The notes beneath the pieces are model-generated. The model did no database searches and was not told where the DNA came from. It saw only the letters and a program-made list of their open reading frames with translations. Positions 4,949 to 29,846 of a stretch of 32,360 nt of DNA are shown here, piece by piece (within the stretch, counting starts at the first letter, position 1; every line of letters starts with the position of its first letter). The position numbers were made by a program, and so were the translations under genes. This DNA is from Candidatus Magasanikiibacteriota bacterium (lineage in GTDB: Bacteria; Patescibacteriota; Patescibacteriia; Magasanikbacterales; JACTTX01): contig JACTTX010000003.1 in the NCBI GenBank assembly GCA_015661005.1, positions 1-32,360 on the forward strand, written 5' to 3'.

Positions 4949-5029
4949 GTTTCCCCTGCGACCCGTTTTTACCGCGTTTTTGCGTACGTTTTTCGCTCCC
5001 TTATTTTGAGACGCCAAGGTTATCCACAC

Positions 5030-5057
5030 GGGGACAGTTACCTCGGTAACTGTCCCC
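5030..5057. repeat. REP-like palindrome, GGGGACAGTTACC family
   Basis: A perfect 13-bp inverted repeat (GGGGACAGTTACC / GGTAACTGTCCCC) with a 2-base loop lies between the divergent nrdJ promoter and the Nudix-like gene's promoter. The outer ten bases match the repeats at 1049-1078 and 14779-14832, while the inner bases differ but still pair. Confidence 0.8.
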
Positions 5058-5060
5058 AAT

Positions 5061-5089
5061 TTGACAACACCGACGGCTTCCATTAAAGT
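5061..5089 (+). promoter_or_regulatory. Promoter of the Nudix-like gene
   Basis: TTGACA, 17-bp spacer, TAAAGT. Downstream the leader has a GGAGGAA...TTCCTCC hairpin followed by CGCTTTTTTG, which could be an attenuator, and then the SD of the gene at 5187. Confidence 0.65.
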
Positions 5090-8100: not shown

Positions 8101-8829
8101 TCAGGCCTCATTGCTCCAAACATTTTGCACATCATCATGATTTTCAAGCGCATCATACAAAACTTCTAACTTTTCCAGCGCTACCGCATCTTCCACTTTC
8201 ACCGTTTCTTTCGGCCGCCACTCAATGCCGGAATATTCGGCCGCGATTCCCAATTTCATCACCGCTTCCAAAACAATTTTCAAACCGGCAACCGTCGTGA
8301 CCACCGTCAATCCATTGTCTTCAGAAATAATATCTTGCGCACCGGCGTCAATCAAAATCAGTTCAATTTCATCCAAAGATTTTTTAACAAACTCATCCAT
8401 GCTTATACGCACGATTCCTACCCGTTCAAACATCCACTGCACCGCTCCCGGGCCGGCCAGAGTACCACCGTGCTTGGAAAGAAGATGCCTTATTTCCGCG
8501 GCCGTGCGATTATTATTATCGGTCAGCGCTTCAATTAAAAAAGCCACGCCGCTCGGACCATACGCTTCAAAAAGGACGGCATCCAATTGCGCGCCGTCAA
8601 CGCCGCCGCTACCCTTTTGAATGGCGCGCTCCACATTGTCCCCTGGCACATTGGCGGCGTGCGCCTGATCAATGGCCGTGGCTAATTTGAAATTGGTGGA
8701 AATGTCCGCGCCACCCTCTTTGGTAGCCACGGTAATGGCGCGAGCGAGTTTGGTAAAAATCACCGCCCGTTTTTTATCAACGGCGTTTTTTCGTGTTTGA
8801 ATGTTGGCCCATTTGGAATGACGAGCCAT
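8101..8829 (-). CDS. yebC: YebC/PmpR family protein
   Basis: A 242-aa protein starting MARHSKWANIQTRKNAVDKKRA, the YebC N-terminal signature, with GPSGVAFLIEALTDNNNRTAAEIRH and the late EWRPKETVKV motif. Family members are described as transcription regulators and, more recently, as factors that help ribosomes through difficult sequences such as proline runs. That second role would complement EF-P, also encoded in this window. There is no SD; the start codon sits next to the hairpin element at 8839-8890. It is adjacent to ruvC as in many bacteria. Confidence 0.97.
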   Translation of the reverse strand: MARHSKWANIQTRKNAVDKKRAVIFTKLARAITVATKEGGADISTNFKLATAIDQAHAANVPGDNVERAIQKGSGGVDGAQLDAVLFEAYGPSGVAFLIEALTDNNNRTAAEIRHLLSKHGGTLAGPGAVQWMFERVGIVRISMDEFVKKSLDEIELILIDAGAQDIISEDNGLTVVTTVAGLKIVLEAVMKLGIAAEYSGIEWRPKETVKVEDAVALEKLEVLYDALENHDDVQNVWSNEA

Positions 8830-8838
8830 AGTTGGTTA

Positions 8839-8890
8839 AATAGACAGTGCAATTGACGTGTTCTCCAATCAAGAACGCCAACTGTCTATT
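8839..8890 (-). repeat. Bulged-tip hairpin element, copy 1
   Basis: The whole gap between the glycosyltransferase stop and the yebC start is an imperfect hairpin. Outer arms AATAGACAGT / ACTGTCTATT pair perfectly. The tip on the coding strand reads GTTCTTGATTGGAGAACACG and is shared with copies at 18304 and 23637. A four-base bulge interrupts the outer stem. Confidence 0.75.
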
Positions 8891-8900
8891 CTCTACTGCT

Positions 8901-10163
8901 CTATCTTTGTACCGCTCTTTCGAGCGCTGCCATCACTTTCACTTGCGCGACTTTTATATCCACCTCTCGCCCGGCCACGGCCACACCTTCACGTCCCAGT
9001 CGCTCGCGTTCCTCCCCGCTTAATTGTTTCATCTTCAAGATGGCCTTGCCAAGCTCCAGACGATTTCCGAACGGCGCCAAAAAACCGTTTTCATTTTCAT
9101 GAATCACCTCTGGCAAACCGCCAATTGAATAACCAACCACCGGCAACCCTGAAGACATCGCTTCCGTGAGCGACATTCCCAAACACGCCCGCTCGGTGGT
9201 GGAGGCATCGCAGTATATGTCCGCGGTCTTATAAAGATCAATTAAATCCTGCTCCGAAAGTTTCTGAAAAACTTTAAGCCGATCGCTCATACCGTAATCC
9301 GCCGCTCGCGCTAAAAGCCAATTTGGATTCCCGGCGCCGCAAAGCGCAATAAAGATATCGCGACCTTGTTCCCGTAAAAGATGCACGGCGTCAATAATAT
9401 GATCATGACCTTTGCGCGGCGTATAAGCGCCGACCGCGAGCACAATAAAGGCCTCTGGCGGCAAGCCGAATTTTTCACGCATCTTTTGTTTGACGCCCGA
9501 ACCGCCGCCGGTATAAAGACCAACATCAATGCCCGGATAAATAACTTCAACCTTCTCTGGCGGCGCATAAAGGAGCGAGCCGTTTGAGCAAAACCAACTG
9601 CAAGTAAGCACAACCTCGGGCAAGGACAAAAAGTACCGCCAATAATTTCCCAAGGTCGCGGCGATATTTTCCCCGCGGGAGTTGGAAAGCCAGTGCACTT
9701 CCGCGTAGGGCGCGAGCACAAAAGGAATACCATGCTCTCGGGCTAAATGCGCCGCCATAAATGACTTGACGAGCGCCGCCTGACCCAAAATCAAATCCGG
9801 TTGAAATTTTTTAATCAGATGACCCAGCCAAACGCCGTAAGATGAATACATTATTCCTTCTTTAGTCAGCCCAAAAAAACGGGCATAAGCGCGATGCAAG
9901 CGAAAATACAATCGCGGATCAGCAAAAAACCATTTCAACAAAAATAAAATTTTTTTGAACTTATTCGGACGGCTTGCGAATTCAAAAAAATATTCTCCGC
10001 CCGCGCCCAAATCGTCCTCGTGATCATGACGGTGGACAAAAGTAATGGCAATTTTGTGTCCGGAACGCGCCCACTCCCGGGCCCAAAGCATGGTAAGTTT
10101 TGGGATGCCGGCATAAGGCGGCGGCAGTGATTCGCCAACGGTACCGGTAATCAGAATCTTCAT
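8901..10163 (-). CDS. Glycosyltransferase, GT4-like (GT-B fold)
   Basis: A 420-aa retaining glycosyltransferase-like protein. The N-terminus MKILITGTVGESLPPPYAGIPK is a typical GT-B donor/acceptor lobe start. The C-terminal half has PEKVEVIYPGIDVGLY, FIVLAVGAYTPRKGHD and the E-X7-E nucleotide-sugar motif ERACLGMSLTEAMSSGLPVV, followed by GGLPEVIHENENGFL. It probably transfers a sugar to a cell-surface or glycolipid acceptor in the cytoplasm or at the membrane; the substrate is unknown. ATG 10161-10163 has no SD and overlaps a short upstream frame by ATGA. It lies downstream of rpoC and a methyltransferase, an unusual position for a surface-glycan gene. Confidence 0.88.
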   Translation of the reverse strand: MKILITGTVGESLPPPYAGIPKLTMLWAREWARSGHKIAITFVHRHDHEDDLGAGGEYFFEFASRPNKFKKILFLLKWFFADPRLYFRLHRAYARFFGLTKEGIMYSSYGVWLGHLIKKFQPDLILGQAALVKSFMAAHLAREHGIPFVLAPYAEVHWLSNSRGENIAATLGNYWRYFLSLPEVVLTCSWFCSNGSLLYAPPEKVEVIYPGIDVGLYTGGGSGVKQKMREKFGLPPEAFIVLAVGAYTPRKGHDHIIDAVHLLREQGRDIFIALCGAGNPNWLLARAADYGMSDRLKVFQKLSEQDLIDLYKTADIYCDASTTERACLGMSLTEAMSSGLPVVGYSIGGLPEVIHENENGFLAPFGNRLELGKAILKMKQLSGEERERLGREGVAVAGREVDIKVAQVKVMAALERAVQR

Positions 10164-14778: not shown

Positions 14779-14832
14779 GGGGACAGTTCTAATGGGGACA
14801 GTTCTAAATGCCAAGCATTTAGAACTGTCCCC
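14779..14832. repeat. GGGGACAGTT palindrome filling the rpoB-rpoC gap
   Basis: An 18-bp perfect inverted repeat (GGGGACAGTTCTAAATGC / its complement) with loop CAA spans 14794-14832, preceded by one extra direct copy GGGGACAGTTCTA (14779-14791). On the rpoBC mRNA this forms a very stable hairpin just upstream of the rpoC start. Confidence 0.88.
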
Positions 14833-14841
14833 CTTGATTCT

Positions 14842-17800
14842 TTATTCATCCGGCAATGGTTCTTTAAATCTTGGCGGCGGGGCTTTGGTTTCTTCTTTCA
14901 CATCAACTGCCACGATGGTGAGCACACCATCCTCATTGCGCTTCAGAAGCTCCACGTCCAAAGACAGACCTTTAAGTTCACGAGTGAGCACATGGAACGA
15001 TTCCGGGATATTAATCTTGGTGATCGGTTCACCTTTGATGATGGCCTCATAGGCCTTGGCGCGGCCCGGGACGTCGTCGGATTTAATGGTTAGAATTTCC
15101 TGAAGCGTATGCGCGGCGCCATAGGCCTCAAGCGCCCACACTTCCATTTCACCAAAACGCTGGCCGCCAAATTGTGCCTTGCCGCCCAACGGCTGTTGGG
15201 TGATCAAAGAGTACGGCCCGATGGAGCGTTGGTGAATCTTGTCCTCAACCATGTGGTTCAACTTCAAAATATAGGTGTAACCAACCGTAACTTTCCGATC
15301 AAACGCTTCACCGGTGCGACCGTCATATAATTGCACCTGACCTTCAACCGGAAAACCGGCTTTTTCCAACTCCCCTTTGATTTGCTCTTCCGTAACGCCG
15401 TTTAACACCGGTGTTGCCGCTTTATATCCCAAAGCATTGGCCGCCAATCCCAAATGCGTTTCCAAAATCTGGCCCAAATTCATACGCGATATAACGCCGA
15501 GCGGCGAGAGAATAACGTCAACCGGCGTGCCATCTTCCAAAAACGGCATATCTTCAATGGGCACGACGCGCGAGCAGACGCCTTTGTTGCCGTGGCGCCC
15601 CGCGACCTTGTCTCCGACTTGAATCTTTCGCATATCCGCCACCGAGACCTGAATCGTCTTGATGACGCCCGGCGGCAACTTGTCTCCGGCTTCGGCCGAG
15701 AAAATTTTAATATCCACCACTTTGCCGTGCTCCCCATGCTCTAAATATTTTGAAGAGTCGCGAACATCGCGCGCTTTTTCTCCAAAAATGGCGCGCAACA
15801 ATTTTTCTTCCGCCGACAATTCCGTTTCACCCTTAGGCGTAATCTTGCCGACCAAAATATCCCCGGACTGCACTTCCGCGCCAATCCGGACCACGCCTTC
15901 CGAATCCAAATTTTTCAGTTTTTCTTCCGAGACGTTGGGGATGTCCGCGGTCACCACTTCCGGCCCGAGCTTTGTTTCCCGAACATCAGTGGAATAATCT
16001 TCAATGTGAATGGATGAGAAGCGATCATTGTGCACCAGCCGTTCGGAAAGAATCACCGCGTCTTCAAAGTTGTATCCATCCCAAATCATGTAGGCCACCA
16101 AAATATTTTGTCCGAGCGCCAACTCTCCGCCTTGGGTGGACGGGCCGTCAGCCAGCGGCTGTCCTTTTTTAACTTTCTCCCCGCGGTTCACAATCGGCCG
16201 CTGGTTGATGGCCGTGGATCCGTTGGAGCGTAAAAATTTATTCAAGCGGTAATTGTAAGTTTTCCCGCTTTTGCCGGAGAGCGCGATTTTCCCGCCATCC
16301 ATTTCCGTAATCTCCCCATCTTCTTCAGCCAAAATAACGTGGCCGGAATTGTGGGCGGCCAAGGCCTCCACTCCGGTGCCGACGATAGGCGCTTCCGGAT
16401 TGATGCAGGGTACGGCTTGACGTTGCATATTGGTGCCCATCAAAGCGCGGGTGGCGTCATCGTGTTCCAAAAAGGGAATGAGGGAAGTGGCGATGGAAAT
16501 AACTTGATTGGACGCCACGTCAATGTATTCAATGTCTTCCACGTCCGCGGAACTCGGGTGGCCAAACTTGCGCACCGGCGCTTTTTCACCGGTGAAATAA
16601 CCGTTCAGATCCACCGGCACCGTGGAAGAAGCGGTGATGGTTTTTTCTTCCTGAAAAGCGTTCAAGTACACGATTTCCGATCCGACGCGCGGCTTGACCG
16701 GAATTATTTCCCAACCCGCCGTTTCCAATTTTTTAGCCATTGCCTCATCCACGGCAACGCCGCGAGCGCCAATAATTTCTCCCGATGATTTGTGAGTTAT
16801 GTCCTCACGCAAAATTTCACCAACAGTGAATTTTGATTTGTTCGGAACTTCCCGCAAAACTTTTCTATACGGCGTTTCCAAAAATCCAAACTCATTGACG
16901 CGAGCATAAGAAGAAAGGTGACCGACGAGTCCGATGTTCGGACCTTCCGGCGTGGCAATTGGACAAATGCGGCCGTAGTGTGTCGGGTGGACATCGCGCA
17001 CATCAAAACCGGCGCGATCACGGGAAAGTCCGCCCGGGCCAAGAGCCGAAAGGCGGCGCTTGTGTTCCAACTCCGAAAGCGGATTGATTTGATCCATGAA
17101 CTGGGAAAGCTGGGACGACATGAAAAATTCTCGGACCGCGCCAATGACCGGCCGAGCATTGATCAGTTTGTTTGGTGAAAGCGTGGTGACGTCATAGGTT
17201 GACATCCGGTCTTTCACAATGCGCTCCATCCGCGCCAAGCCCACGCGAAAACGATTTTGCACCAACTCACCCACGGCGCGAATGCGGCGGTTGCCCAAGT
17301 GATCAATGTCATCCGGATCTTCTTGCGTTACATTCAAACGAATGACTTCCTTAATGATGCGCAAAACATCTTCCTTTTTAAGAACACGATGCTCTTTGGA
17401 ATTCAAATCCGCTTCCGCTTCCGGAATGCCAAAACGCTGATTGAATTTATACCGGCCGACGCGTCCCAAATCATAACGATCAAAATTGAAAAACATGGCG
17501 TGAATCAGCTGACGGGCATTATCCGCCGTGGCCAGATCCCCGGGACGAATGCGTCTGTACACTTCAATCAACGCCTCCTCTTCATTGGTAGAAGCGTCTT
17601 TGGCCAGCGTCATTTCCACATAATCAATTTGCGGATGAGTGTTCACTTCTTTCATCAGTTCACGCATTTCATCCGTGTTCACATAACCGAAAGCCCGCAG
17701 AAGCGTGGCCGCGGAGACCTTGCGCTTGCGGTCAACTTTAACCCACAGCACATTATTCAAATCCGTTTCAATTTCAATCCACGCTCCGCGATTCGGAATA

Positions 17801-18282
17801 ATCTTGGCCCCGTAATAACGGCGCCCGCGCGCCGCTTCCGAAGTAAAAAATGCGCCCGGCGAACGAATCAGTTGAGAAACAATCACCCGTTCAATCCCGT
17901 TCACAATAAAAGTTCCGCGCGGCGTCATGATTGGAAAATCACCAAGGTACACTTCCTGATCTTTAACGTCACCAGTGCGCTTATTCACCAGACGCGCATT
18001 GACGCGCAAAGGCGCTTCAAAAGAAATATTTTTTTCTCGACTCGTCACTTCATCAAATTTTGGTTCGTCCAAATAATAATCCAAAAAAGAAAGTTCCAAA
18101 TCCCGGCCGGTGAAATCCGTGATCGGCGAAACCTCGTCAAAAAGTTCGCGAATGCCTTTTTTGAAAAACCAATCGTAAGCATTTTTCTGCACCTCAATCA
18201 AGTCCGGGACCGGCGCCGTATCCCGCAAGCTAGTGAAATATTTTCGTTCGGCGATGATCGTGGGTTGGCGTTTGAAAATCAT
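14842..18282 (-). CDS. rpoB: DNA-directed RNA polymerase subunit beta
   Basis: A 1146-aa polymerase subunit. Start: ATG 18280-18282 ([16 protein letters not shown]) is preferred; the track start at 18336 only translates a hairpin repeat. The rifampicin-pocket region is [10 protein letters not shown]...[14 protein letters not shown] with the Asp, His and Ser positions of sensitive enzymes retained. Other signatures: [57 protein letters not shown] and, near the C-terminus, [24 protein letters not shown]. No rplJ-rplL genes lie upstream, unlike the usual bacterial arrangement; instead there is a structured leader and a divergent promoter. No SD is visible before the start. Confidence 0.98.
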   Translation of the reverse strand: [1146 protein letters not shown]

Positions 18283-18514
18283 ATTTATAGAAGTGGGGAT
18301 TGGAGAACGGTGATTTGTGAATGGCGTGTTCTTCAATCAAGAACGCCATTCACAAATCACCGTTCTCTGTTCTCCAAGGCAACAATAAAATCCCTGCCTC
18401 GACAATTGTCGAGGAGGGTCAGTGACTTTATTACTCCTTTAGAGAGGAATGCAAGGTGGGCATGAAGTCCTTGCACACAGAATTCCGCTTAAACAACGGA
18501 AATCCGTGATAGGT
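18283..18514 (-). promoter_or_regulatory. Structured rpoB 5' leader
   Basis: About 230 bases between the predicted transcription start and the rpoB ATG hold at least three hairpins: GCAAGG...CCTTGC (18451-18474), the perfect palindrome CCTCGACAATTGTCGAGG (18397-18414), and the long bulged-tip element at 18304-18366. No ORF is credible here. The density of hairpins suggests control of polymerase subunit expression, which is inferred. Confidence 0.5.
18304..18366 (-). repeat. Bulged-tip hairpin element, copy 2
   Basis: A stem of 28 pairs interrupted only by a 2-base bulge. The 21-bp lower stem (AGAACGGTGATTTGTGAATGG and complement) is perfect; the tip on the rpoB-sense strand is GTTCTTGATTGAAGAACACG, nearly identical to copies 1 and 3. 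Confidence 0.85.
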
Positions 18515-21331: not shown

Positions 21332-23638
21332 GTGTCTAACAAACATAAAAAGCGCGATCGTGAACAAAAACCAACGCCAACCGTCAATCCGCAAATCAAA
21401 CGCGGAGTGGTGGTAATTTTTTTGTTCGTGCTGGCCATTTTATCCGTTCTCTCATTTCTCAACTTGGCCGGCATTGTCGGAACTTTTTTTGAGGATCTGC
21501 TCTCTTGGCTCTTTGGCGTTTTACGTTATGTCGTGCCGGTGATTTTAATCTGGCTCGCCGTTATGATCATGCGCCACCATAAAGAATCCGAACACCGTCC
21601 AACTTACATCATTGGCTTTATACTCTTGGCGCTCACTTTGAGCGGCCTTATTCATCTGCGTTTGCCGCTTGAACAAAATATTTCGGCGGCGCTTCAAGGA
21701 GAAAGCGGCGGTTTAGTTGGCGTGGCTCTTTCCTATCCGCTTCTTTTCTTAATGGGATTTTGGGGCGCGATAACTATTCTCGGCGCGCTTTTGATTGTGT
21801 CCTTAATTTTGATTTCCAGCGCTTCCATTTCCAAACTAATGGAACTGGCTCGCGGCGTGCGCGGAAAACTGGCCGCTCTGCGGCCAATAAAAGTTCATGG
21901 CGCGTATGAAGATACTCGCGGTTTTGAATCGCGGGAAATTGATCCGGACGCTGATGAAGACGCCAAAGAAGAAAAAAACGTCGGCGCGGAAGAAGAGGAG
22001 ACGGAGGATGAATCCGAGGAGCCGCTTGATGATGAAATTGAAGAGGAAGACAAAGAAAAATTGATTGACGGCAAACAGATGCCGCTCCCAAAACCAAAAG
22101 TGAAACGGCATTGGCGTTTGCCCGGCATTGAGTTGCTCATCACTTCCAAGTCCAAACCAACGGCCGGAGACGTCAAAGCCAATTCTCAACTTATTCATGA
22201 CACGCTTTCGCAATTTGGCATTGAAGTGGATATGGGAGAAATCCGTGTTGGACCAACCGTAACACAATACGCTTTGAAACCATCGCGCGGAGTGAAACTT
22301 TCCCGCATCACGGCTCTGCATAATGATTTGGCCTTGGCCTTGGCCGCTCATCCCATCAGAATTGAAGCGCCCATTCCCGGGAAGCCGTATGTCGGCATTG
22401 AAGTTCCCAACCAGCGGGTGGCGCTCGTTACTTTGCGGGAACTTTTGGAATCCGATGAATTTAAAAATCGCGAAACGGGAATGTCCATTGCCTTGGGCAA
22501 AGACGTGGCCGGAAAAGTTTGGTTTGCGGATTTGCCGCGCATGCCGCATCTCTTAATTGCTGGCGCCACCGGTTCTGGAAAAACGGTTTGCATCAACACC
22601 ATTATTTTGAGTTTGCTTTATCAAAATACGCCGGAACAGTTGCGTTTCATTATGGTGGATCCCAAACGCGTGGAGCTTCCTTTATATAACGGCATTCCGC
22701 ATTTGCTGACGCCGGTCATTACGGATGTGCCGCGGACCGTGAATGCTTTGAAGTGGACTATTGGAGAAATGGATCGCCGTTTTGAATTGCTGGCCAAAGC
22801 CGGTCGGCGCGATGTCGGATCGTACAATCGGATCGCTGACGATCCTCTGCCGTATTTGGTTTTTGTGATTGATGAGCTGGCGGATCTGATGGCCACCTCG
22901 GCCGCGGAAGTGGAAGCCGGAATTATTCGTTTGGCGCAAATGGCGCGCGCTGTTGGCATTCACTTGGTGGTGGCCACGCAACGGCCGTCCGTTGATGTCA
23001 TCACCGGTCTGATGAAAGCCAACATTCCGACGCGCATCGCGTTTTCCGTTGCTTCCATTATTGACTCGCGCACAATTTTGGATGCAAGCGGCGCGGAAAA
23101 ATTATTGGGACGCGGCGATATGCTCTTTTCCACCGCTGAACTTTCCAAACCAAGACGTCTTCAAGGGGCGTTTGTATCAGAGGAGGAAATGAAACGAGTG
23201 GTGGAATTTCTCAAAACTGATGACGCGCCGGAATATAATGAGGCCGTGGTGGAAGTGCAGTTCGGCGCCTCAACCAGCGTTTTCGGTCCGGCCGCTCACA
23301 ATGATCGCGATCCGCTTTTTGAGGAAGCCAAAAAAGTTGTCATTGAATCCGGCAAAGCCAGCACATCTCTTTTGCAGAGACGTTTGAAATTGGGCTATGC
23401 CCGCGCCGCCCGAATCATAGATGAGTTGGAGGCGGTCGGCGTGGTGGGCAAAGGTGAAGGCGCCAAGCCGCGGGAAATCTTGGCTCTCAAGGGGCAAAAT
23501 GGTATGATGACCCCCGGAGGGGTCTCTCCTGAAGAACTCGCCAACGACGGCGCGGCGGATTTGGCTTACGCCGAAGCGTCGGGTGATGAGATTGAAGACG
23601 ACGGCGTGCCGGAGGATATAGAATTTCAAAAAAATTGA
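21332..23638 (+). CDS. ftsK: DNA translocase FtsK/SpoIIIE
   Basis: A 768-aa membrane-anchored ATPase that pumps chromosome DNA through the closing septum. Residues about 23-162 contain four hydrophobic segments. A charged, very acidic linker follows (EEEETEDESEEPLDDEIEEEDKE). The motor domain has Walker A GATGSGKT at about 411-418 and Walker B FVIDELADL at about 511-519, plus VVATQRPSVDVITGLMKANIP. The C-terminal winged-helix gamma domain (STSLLQRRLKLGYARAARIIDELEAVGVV) would read KOPS-like sequences. GTG start, no SD, likely leaderless. The stop codon overlaps the first bases of the bulged-tip hairpin. Followed in the same direction by a RodZ-like gene. Confidence 0.96.
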   Translation: MSNKHKKRDREQKPTPTVNPQIKRGVVVIFLFVLAILSVLSFLNLAGIVGTFFEDLLSWLFGVLRYVVPVILIWLAVMIMRHHKESEHRPTYIIGFILLALTLSGLIHLRLPLEQNISAALQGESGGLVGVALSYPLLFLMGFWGAITILGALLIVSLILISSASISKLMELARGVRGKLAALRPIKVHGAYEDTRGFESREIDPDADEDAKEEKNVGAEEEETEDESEEPLDDEIEEEDKEKLIDGKQMPLPKPKVKRHWRLPGIELLITSKSKPTAGDVKANSQLIHDTLSQFGIEVDMGEIRVGPTVTQYALKPSRGVKLSRITALHNDLALALAAHPIRIEAPIPGKPYVGIEVPNQRVALVTLRELLESDEFKNRETGMSIALGKDVAGKVWFADLPRMPHLLIAGATGSGKTVCINTIILSLLYQNTPEQLRFIMVDPKRVELPLYNGIPHLLTPVITDVPRTVNALKWTIGEMDRRFELLAKAGRRDVGSYNRIADDPLPYLVFVIDELADLMATSAAEVEAGIIRLAQMARAVGIHLVVATQRPSVDVITGLMKANIPTRIAFSVASIIDSRTILDASGAEKLLGRGDMLFSTAELSKPRRLQGAFVSEEEMKRVVEFLKTDDAPEYNEAVVEVQFGASTSVFGPAAHNDRDPLFEEAKKVVIESGKASTSLLQRRLKLGYARAARIIDELEAVGVVGKGEGAKPREILALKGQNGMMTPGGVSPEELANDGAADLAYAEASGDEIEDDGVPEDIEFQKN

Positions 23639-23697
23639 ATATTGAACGGCCAATAGCGTTCTTGTTTGGAGAACACGCTATTTGCCGTTCAATATTC
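23637..23697 (+). repeat. Bulged-tip hairpin element, copy 3
   Basis: Lower stem GAATATTGAACGG.. pairs with ..CCGTTCAATATTC (19 of 20 pairs). The tip on the gene-sense strand, GTTCTTGTTTGGAGAACACG, matches copies 1 and 2. It fills the ftsK to RodZ-like gap. Confidence 0.85.
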
Positions 23698-23713
23698 CAC
23701 CAAGCGCGATCCT

Positions 23714-29676: not shown

Positions 29677-29710
29677 ACGGAAGAAGCTGGAAGCTTGAGA
29701 CTGAGGGCTG

Positions 29711-29846
29711 GAATGTATAAATGTTATCAAGGGTGTGAATATCTGTTTGTTAGACATGGGTTTGCGCCACCTTAGTGTTATCTTCAGAGACGGCGCGGGA
29801 CCCGTGTCGAACAAACAGATATTCACACCCGCAAACATTCCGGTCT
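29711..29846. repeat. Long inverted repeat upstream of efp
   Basis: Arms of 31 bp (29731-29761 and 29800-29830, beginning GGGTGTGAATATCTGTTTGT) match at 29 positions. Inner stem GCGCC/GGCGC encloses a loop of about 23 bases; outer short arms GAATGT / ACATTC extend it. The predicted hairpin covers about 130 bases of the efp leader. Confidence 0.8.

Follow-up and report, generated by a model that had tools for sequence, protein, structure and literature searches.

Our analysis showed that three intergenic hairpins on a contig of a Candidatus Magasanikiibacteriota bacterium belong to a family with two tip versions that occupies about 75 loci of the genome (a hand count from covariance-model matches). 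For this family we established copy number, fixed size, an invariant tip, a compensated stem, a hidden stem consensus, nesting, sense orientation and stop-codon proximity. The explanation that we favour on the sequence data, with a probability of about 0.5, is a mobile hairpin family, REP/RHE-like, nesting and specific to its lineage. Copies that were retained would be sense-strand RNA hairpins at 3' ends and in intercistronic gaps. Copies would spread as DNA by some mechanism, often putting one hairpin into the tip of another; those that persist would be transcribed, with selection acting on the hairpin of the mRNA strand. The conserved tip and the fixed A-U and C-G pairs may be contacted by a protein, probably one that processes RNA or protects mRNA ends, and the hairpin could then signal processing or stability at 3' ends or between cistrons, along the lines suggested for REPs and for hairpin elements of organelles. 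The original prediction had named an RNA signal or a mobile hairpin as possibilities. We found evidence for both, with multi-copy stems at unrelated sites and nesting pointing to spread, and orientation and strand-asymmetric mismatches pointing to sense-strand RNA; since these signs coexist, the two roles are not exclusive.

The three hairpins of the window

The window, i.e. the whole stretch of 32,360 nt that was analysed, is contig C1 of an 870,457-bp genome in 44 contigs (97.85% complete). Its three hairpins and the features closest to them are as follows.

8838..8891, minus strand: hairpin copy 1, tip A with a shortened stem (covariance-model score 44.2 bits, fold z -3.24)
8857..8876, minus strand: tip A of copy 1, GTTCTTGATTGGAGAACACG, with a 2-nt AC bulge (exact match, folding)
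14842..18282, minus strand: rpoB, directly downstream of copy 2 (RpoB match, home-made gene call)
18301..18369, minus strand: hairpin copy 2, tip A (covariance-model score 84.6 bits, fold z -12.4)
18325..18344, minus strand: tip A of copy 2, GTTCTTGATTGAAGAACACG (exact match)
23633..23701, plus strand: hairpin copy 3, tip A (covariance-model score 72.4 bits, fold z -8.6)
23658..23677, plus strand: tip A of copy 3, GTTCTTGTTTGGAGAACACG (exact match)

As originally predicted, the three hairpins have one tip in common, exact in 3/3, and RNA folding gives each of them an identical 2-base bulge (AC). The prediction that the tip lies on the coding strand of the local genes also held, all three copies being sense to both neighbouring genes. 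Copy 1 has a stem of 10 bp with an asymmetric internal loop (8839-8890) and lies between the ORFs 8101-8829 and 8901-10163, to both of which it is sense. Copy 2, with 23 perfect pairs below the tip (18303-18367), is located about 20 nt upstream of rpoB, the product of which has its best match (75% identity) in a Candidatus Magasanikbacteria RpoB, which places the host in Patescibacteria. The stem of copy 3 contains a single mismatch (23637-23697), and its left arm starts inside the stop codon that ends ORF 21407-23638. The tip motif has 6 matches in the window at up to 3 mismatches, compared to 0.25 expected, and a search of the window against Rfam 15 gave no match at or above the gathering score.

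Copy number and phylogenetic range

Tip copies were counted in genome-wide searches. With up to 3 mismatches allowed, tip A (GTTCTTGWTTGRAGAACACG) is matched 48 times, 41 times exactly, compared to none for a reversed-pattern control, far from what chance would give. A sister version, tip B (GTTCTTGTTCTAAGCAACACG), has 34 matches, of which 27 are exact. Stems of at least 19 bp are present in 64 of the 78 copies with tip A or B, and a covariance model made from 40 tip-A hairpins gave 122 genome matches, many of which represent one place on both strands. A census on six contigs, 314 kb in total, recorded 40 long inverted repeats. About 28 of these have one of the two tips or something close to it; the others mostly belong to a different family, built on GGGGACA (about 9 of the 40), or to a near variant of it.

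Among the genomes examined, the hairpin family is confined to one uncultured Patescibacteria species, whose nearest relatives are Magasanikbacteria. Allowing up to 1 mismatch, we did not find the tip in the 85 other genomes of the order; it was also absent from GTDB contigs and IMG/VR. Across 380 further genomes from the class, the covariance model gave a single weak match (E 7e-5). Stretches from 17 relatives are likewise devoid of a shared-tip family, the hairpins there being mostly A/T-rich and terminator-like. At the orthologous rpoB loci of six relatives, long inverted repeats are scarce, rpoB itself lacks them, and the 5' gaps are highly diverged. No second genome of the host's own family turned up among the relatives searched, and in a limited literature search we did not find a hairpin-repeat family of this kind described in Patescibacteria. 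The family is unusually clean, in that tip and bulge are conserved, the stems covary massively, and the copies nest and are strand-biased; it provides a test case for the spread of palindromic repeats and their possible conversion into RNA signals.

Stem anatomy and covariation

The element is about 70 nt long and consists of the tip with its 2-nt bulge on a stem of 21-26 bp. In tip-A copies, pairing then ends, falling from 97% Watson-Crick at position -21 to 35% at -27. The lower stems had been described as unrelated in sequence yet paired; the pairing is as described, but the stems are not unrelated, since fixed positions are common to the 64 full-length copies. An A is found at -6 in 64/64 and at -19 in 63/64, and a C at -1 in 63/64, giving a hidden consensus of A-U pairs at -6 and -19 and a C-G pair at -1; in addition, T-4 and A-5 are almost always present, and G-16 usually is. 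The remaining stem pairs use all four Watson-Crick types. Given this hidden consensus and the fixed length, the lower stems are best called divergent.

Their divergence is compensated. Among the 40 tip-A hairpins, 95.3% of cells are paired and 24 of 31 stem pairs are double-changed, with 308 double-changed cells compared to 88 +/- 8 after shuffling and 45-60 with a slid register. The claim of selection or generation of the hairpins at the level of structure is thus strongly supported. The T-A pair beside the bulge is swapped to A-T in two copies (GATCTTG..AACTCG), an exchange that pins down where the bulge lies.

Orientation and placement

In gaps between co-directional genes, tip A reads with the genes in 28 cases and against them in 4, and tip B in 23 and 2, respectively (p 1.9e-5 for each, with the copies not all independent), i.e. 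51:6 for the two pooled; the gene positions are home-made gene calls, and these counts depend on the gene caller. The genome-wide copies thus have, for both tips, the paired stems and the orientation bias whose lack would, in the original prediction, have pointed to chance. Elements whose stem occurs once in the searched DNA are gene-sense in 14 of 14 cases by hand count. Where one contig has genes in both directions, tip orientation goes with the genes (5:2 vs 1:8, p 0.035), and on contigs C1, C3 and C33 it flips with them within 2-8 kb. GC skew is weak as a replication marker and did not cleanly separate the direction of transcription from that of replication. Among mismatches read on the tip strand, G.A is the commonest, and there are 30 G.T as against 16 A.C (p 0.054), as expected if the tip strand is the one that folds. 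The hairpins also lie closer to the upstream gene, at a median of 36 nt after its stop codon vs 75 nt before the downstream start (p 0.012), and about 1 in 78 copies is inside an ORF. This copy, a full hairpin with an exact tip, sits in frame in a holB-like ORF (L035 position ~1000; C41:2319-2387). Alignment with relatives, which are very diverged and variable in length in this region, gave no clean insertion.

Stable hairpins near stop codons might be intrinsic transcription terminators with a conserved loop. This is extremely improbable here, because the T fraction 3' of the hairpins is 0.21 vs 0.25 genome-wide, with at least 5 T in 10 nt in only 4 of 64 copies, and many copies lie between co-directional genes. 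With no T-run 3' of the 64 hairpins, we rejected this identity.

The main rival to the explanation that we favour is a purely selfish miniature element moved via folded single-stranded DNA by a hairpin-recognising enzyme, such as an HUH/Y1 transposase or a tyrosine recombinase. The tip and the fixed pairs would then be enzyme contacts, and orientation would reflect the exposed strand. Nesting, multi-copy stems, a fixed stem length and the polarity of the conserved pairs all fit such an element, and enzymes of both kinds are encoded in the genome, namely two Y1 transposases and two generic tyrosine recombinases. A further point in its favour is a group of hairpins of similar design, family D (see below), which shows no orientation bias (6:4), a result that we count against the sense-RNA explanation. 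Nevertheless, when we examined the two Y1 genes for a RAYT/Y1 association, their flanks held GGGGACA repeats, which are a different hairpin family; tip-A and tip-B hairpins lack target duplications and a GTAG/CGTC tag, and their 51:6 bias tracks the genes over the short distances given above. We hold the purely selfish element to be somewhat unlikely.

Nesting and family D

Many copies sit in the split tip of an outer hairpin, and the same stem families are found at unrelated flanks. Family D comprises 14 copies (L207-L220) with a conserved core, GACATGGGTTTGCGCCACCTTA..GGCGCGGGACCCGTGTC, that has tandem GA/GA and a conserved T.G wobble, on a variable, well-paired base. This constant top over a variable paired base is a design like that of the tip-A and tip-B hairpins. 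Five family D copies have a tip-A hairpin in the loop, and one without it is located in the window.

29731..29830, plus strand: family D hairpin with no tip-A hairpin in its loop (core GACATGGGTTTGCGCCACCTTA..GGCGCGGGACCCGTGTC with tandem GA/GA)

In three of the D+A composites, the cores are 93-96% identical over 139 nt, and the basal arms have only 8-12 of 20 bases in common, yet are paired. Either the base may be remade or exchanged as copies move, or the cores may have been homogenised by gene conversion. Because near-identical cores are combined with differing paired bases, the origin of the paired stems is directly testable in a sister genome.

These composites bear on two further explanations. 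In the first, the family would be a functional RNA regulon with no recent mobility, made up of old hairpins that were kept for binding one protein or RNase and diverged slowly by compensated changes. The continuum of stems with compensated differences, the invariant tip and the sense bias agree with this scenario, but the same-order relatives have no such family, and near-identical nested composites occur at several sites, which indicates recent copying; we consider it distinctly unlikely. In the second, each insertion would create a new stem by duplicating target DNA in inverted form, through template switching or fold-back priming, so that pairing would reflect origin and not selection. The divergent but paired basal arms of the three composites are consistent with this idea, as is the large number of stems for which a search of half the genome gave no second copy. 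Gene conversion of the cores, or insertion into the tips of pre-existing hairpins, fits the composites equally well, however, and the hidden consensus of the tip-A and tip-B stems is not expected from arbitrary target DNA, making this explanation very unlikely.

A more far-reaching version of the mobile, transcribed hairpin that we favour would have a recently spread element turned into a shared mRNA processing or stability code. Dozens of mRNAs, the rpoB and holB regions included, would be recognised by one host protein through their bulged tips and fixed stem pairs, as a genome-wide RNA regulon, and the basal stems would be rebuilt or exchanged during moves. Judged from sequence, we regard this as rather unlikely.

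Comparison with known elements

Like REP, BIME and REPIN sequences, the hairpins are species-specific, high-copy, intergenic and palindromic, with complementary changes in their stems. REPs are described as lying mainly downstream of coding regions, and as plausibly transcribed; one end carries a GTAG or CGTC tag, and the stem measures 5-13 bp (PMC3733652). In the family described here, in contrast, the stems have 21-26 bp and the conserved part is the bulged tip. GTAG was found near the base of 5/64 hairpins and CGTC of 0/64. With the tag missing and the stem too long for the published definition (PMC3733652), we rejected membership of the GTAG/CGTC REP superfamily. In the RHE of sponge mitochondria, the stem is conserved and the loop variable (PMC2800124), whereas our family has the reverse arrangement of a constant tip and a variable stem. 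It resembles both the sponge RHE and the double-hairpin elements carried by Allomyces mtDNA in being multi-copy and intergenic, with nested or double forms and independent invasions per lineage.

Two further systems share some of these features. The Rickettsia palindromic elements are palindromic repeats able to sit in frame inside genes, as the copy in the holB-like ORF does; by contrast, our family is rarely within an ORF, and the alignment of that copy with relatives gave no clean insertion. Integron attC sites act as one strand that folds; they lie close to stop codons and have a covarying stem, bulged bases and some conserved positions, features that recur in our hairpins. However, conservation is at the base in attC and at the tip here, the neighbours of our hairpins are housekeeping genes such as rpoB, and no cassette array was seen.

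Two other candidates were discarded. A MITE or other insertion-sequence derivative with target-site duplication was rejected, as direct repeats of at least 4 nt flank 0/64 copies. A reverse transcriptase as mobiliser was also rejected, the genome having a single short RT ORF that is unconnected to the hairpins. This ORF (L263, C44:51058-51324), identified by eye, looks like part of a diversity-generating retroelement.

Neighbouring repeats

The GGGGACA hairpins, REP-like but distinct from the families above, have GGGGACAG/GGGGACAC at the base and a variable top, often GGGGACAGTTCTAAA..; they are present at 14794-14832 and 5019-5068 of the window and in L050, as well as close to a gene for a Y1 transposase. 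Many hairpins have purine-rich mosaic repeats (GGAAGCTGGAGACTGG-like) beside them, with pyrimidine-rich counterparts on the opposite side; examples are the flanks of L017, L021, L027 and L036 and window positions 29685-29715. Finally, a Patescibacteria relative has two perfect palindromes (L069 positions 1315 and 1960), built on CCGTCTGAATGTGATATA and CCGTCTCAATATGATAT, which we take to resemble the Neisseria DNA-uptake word.
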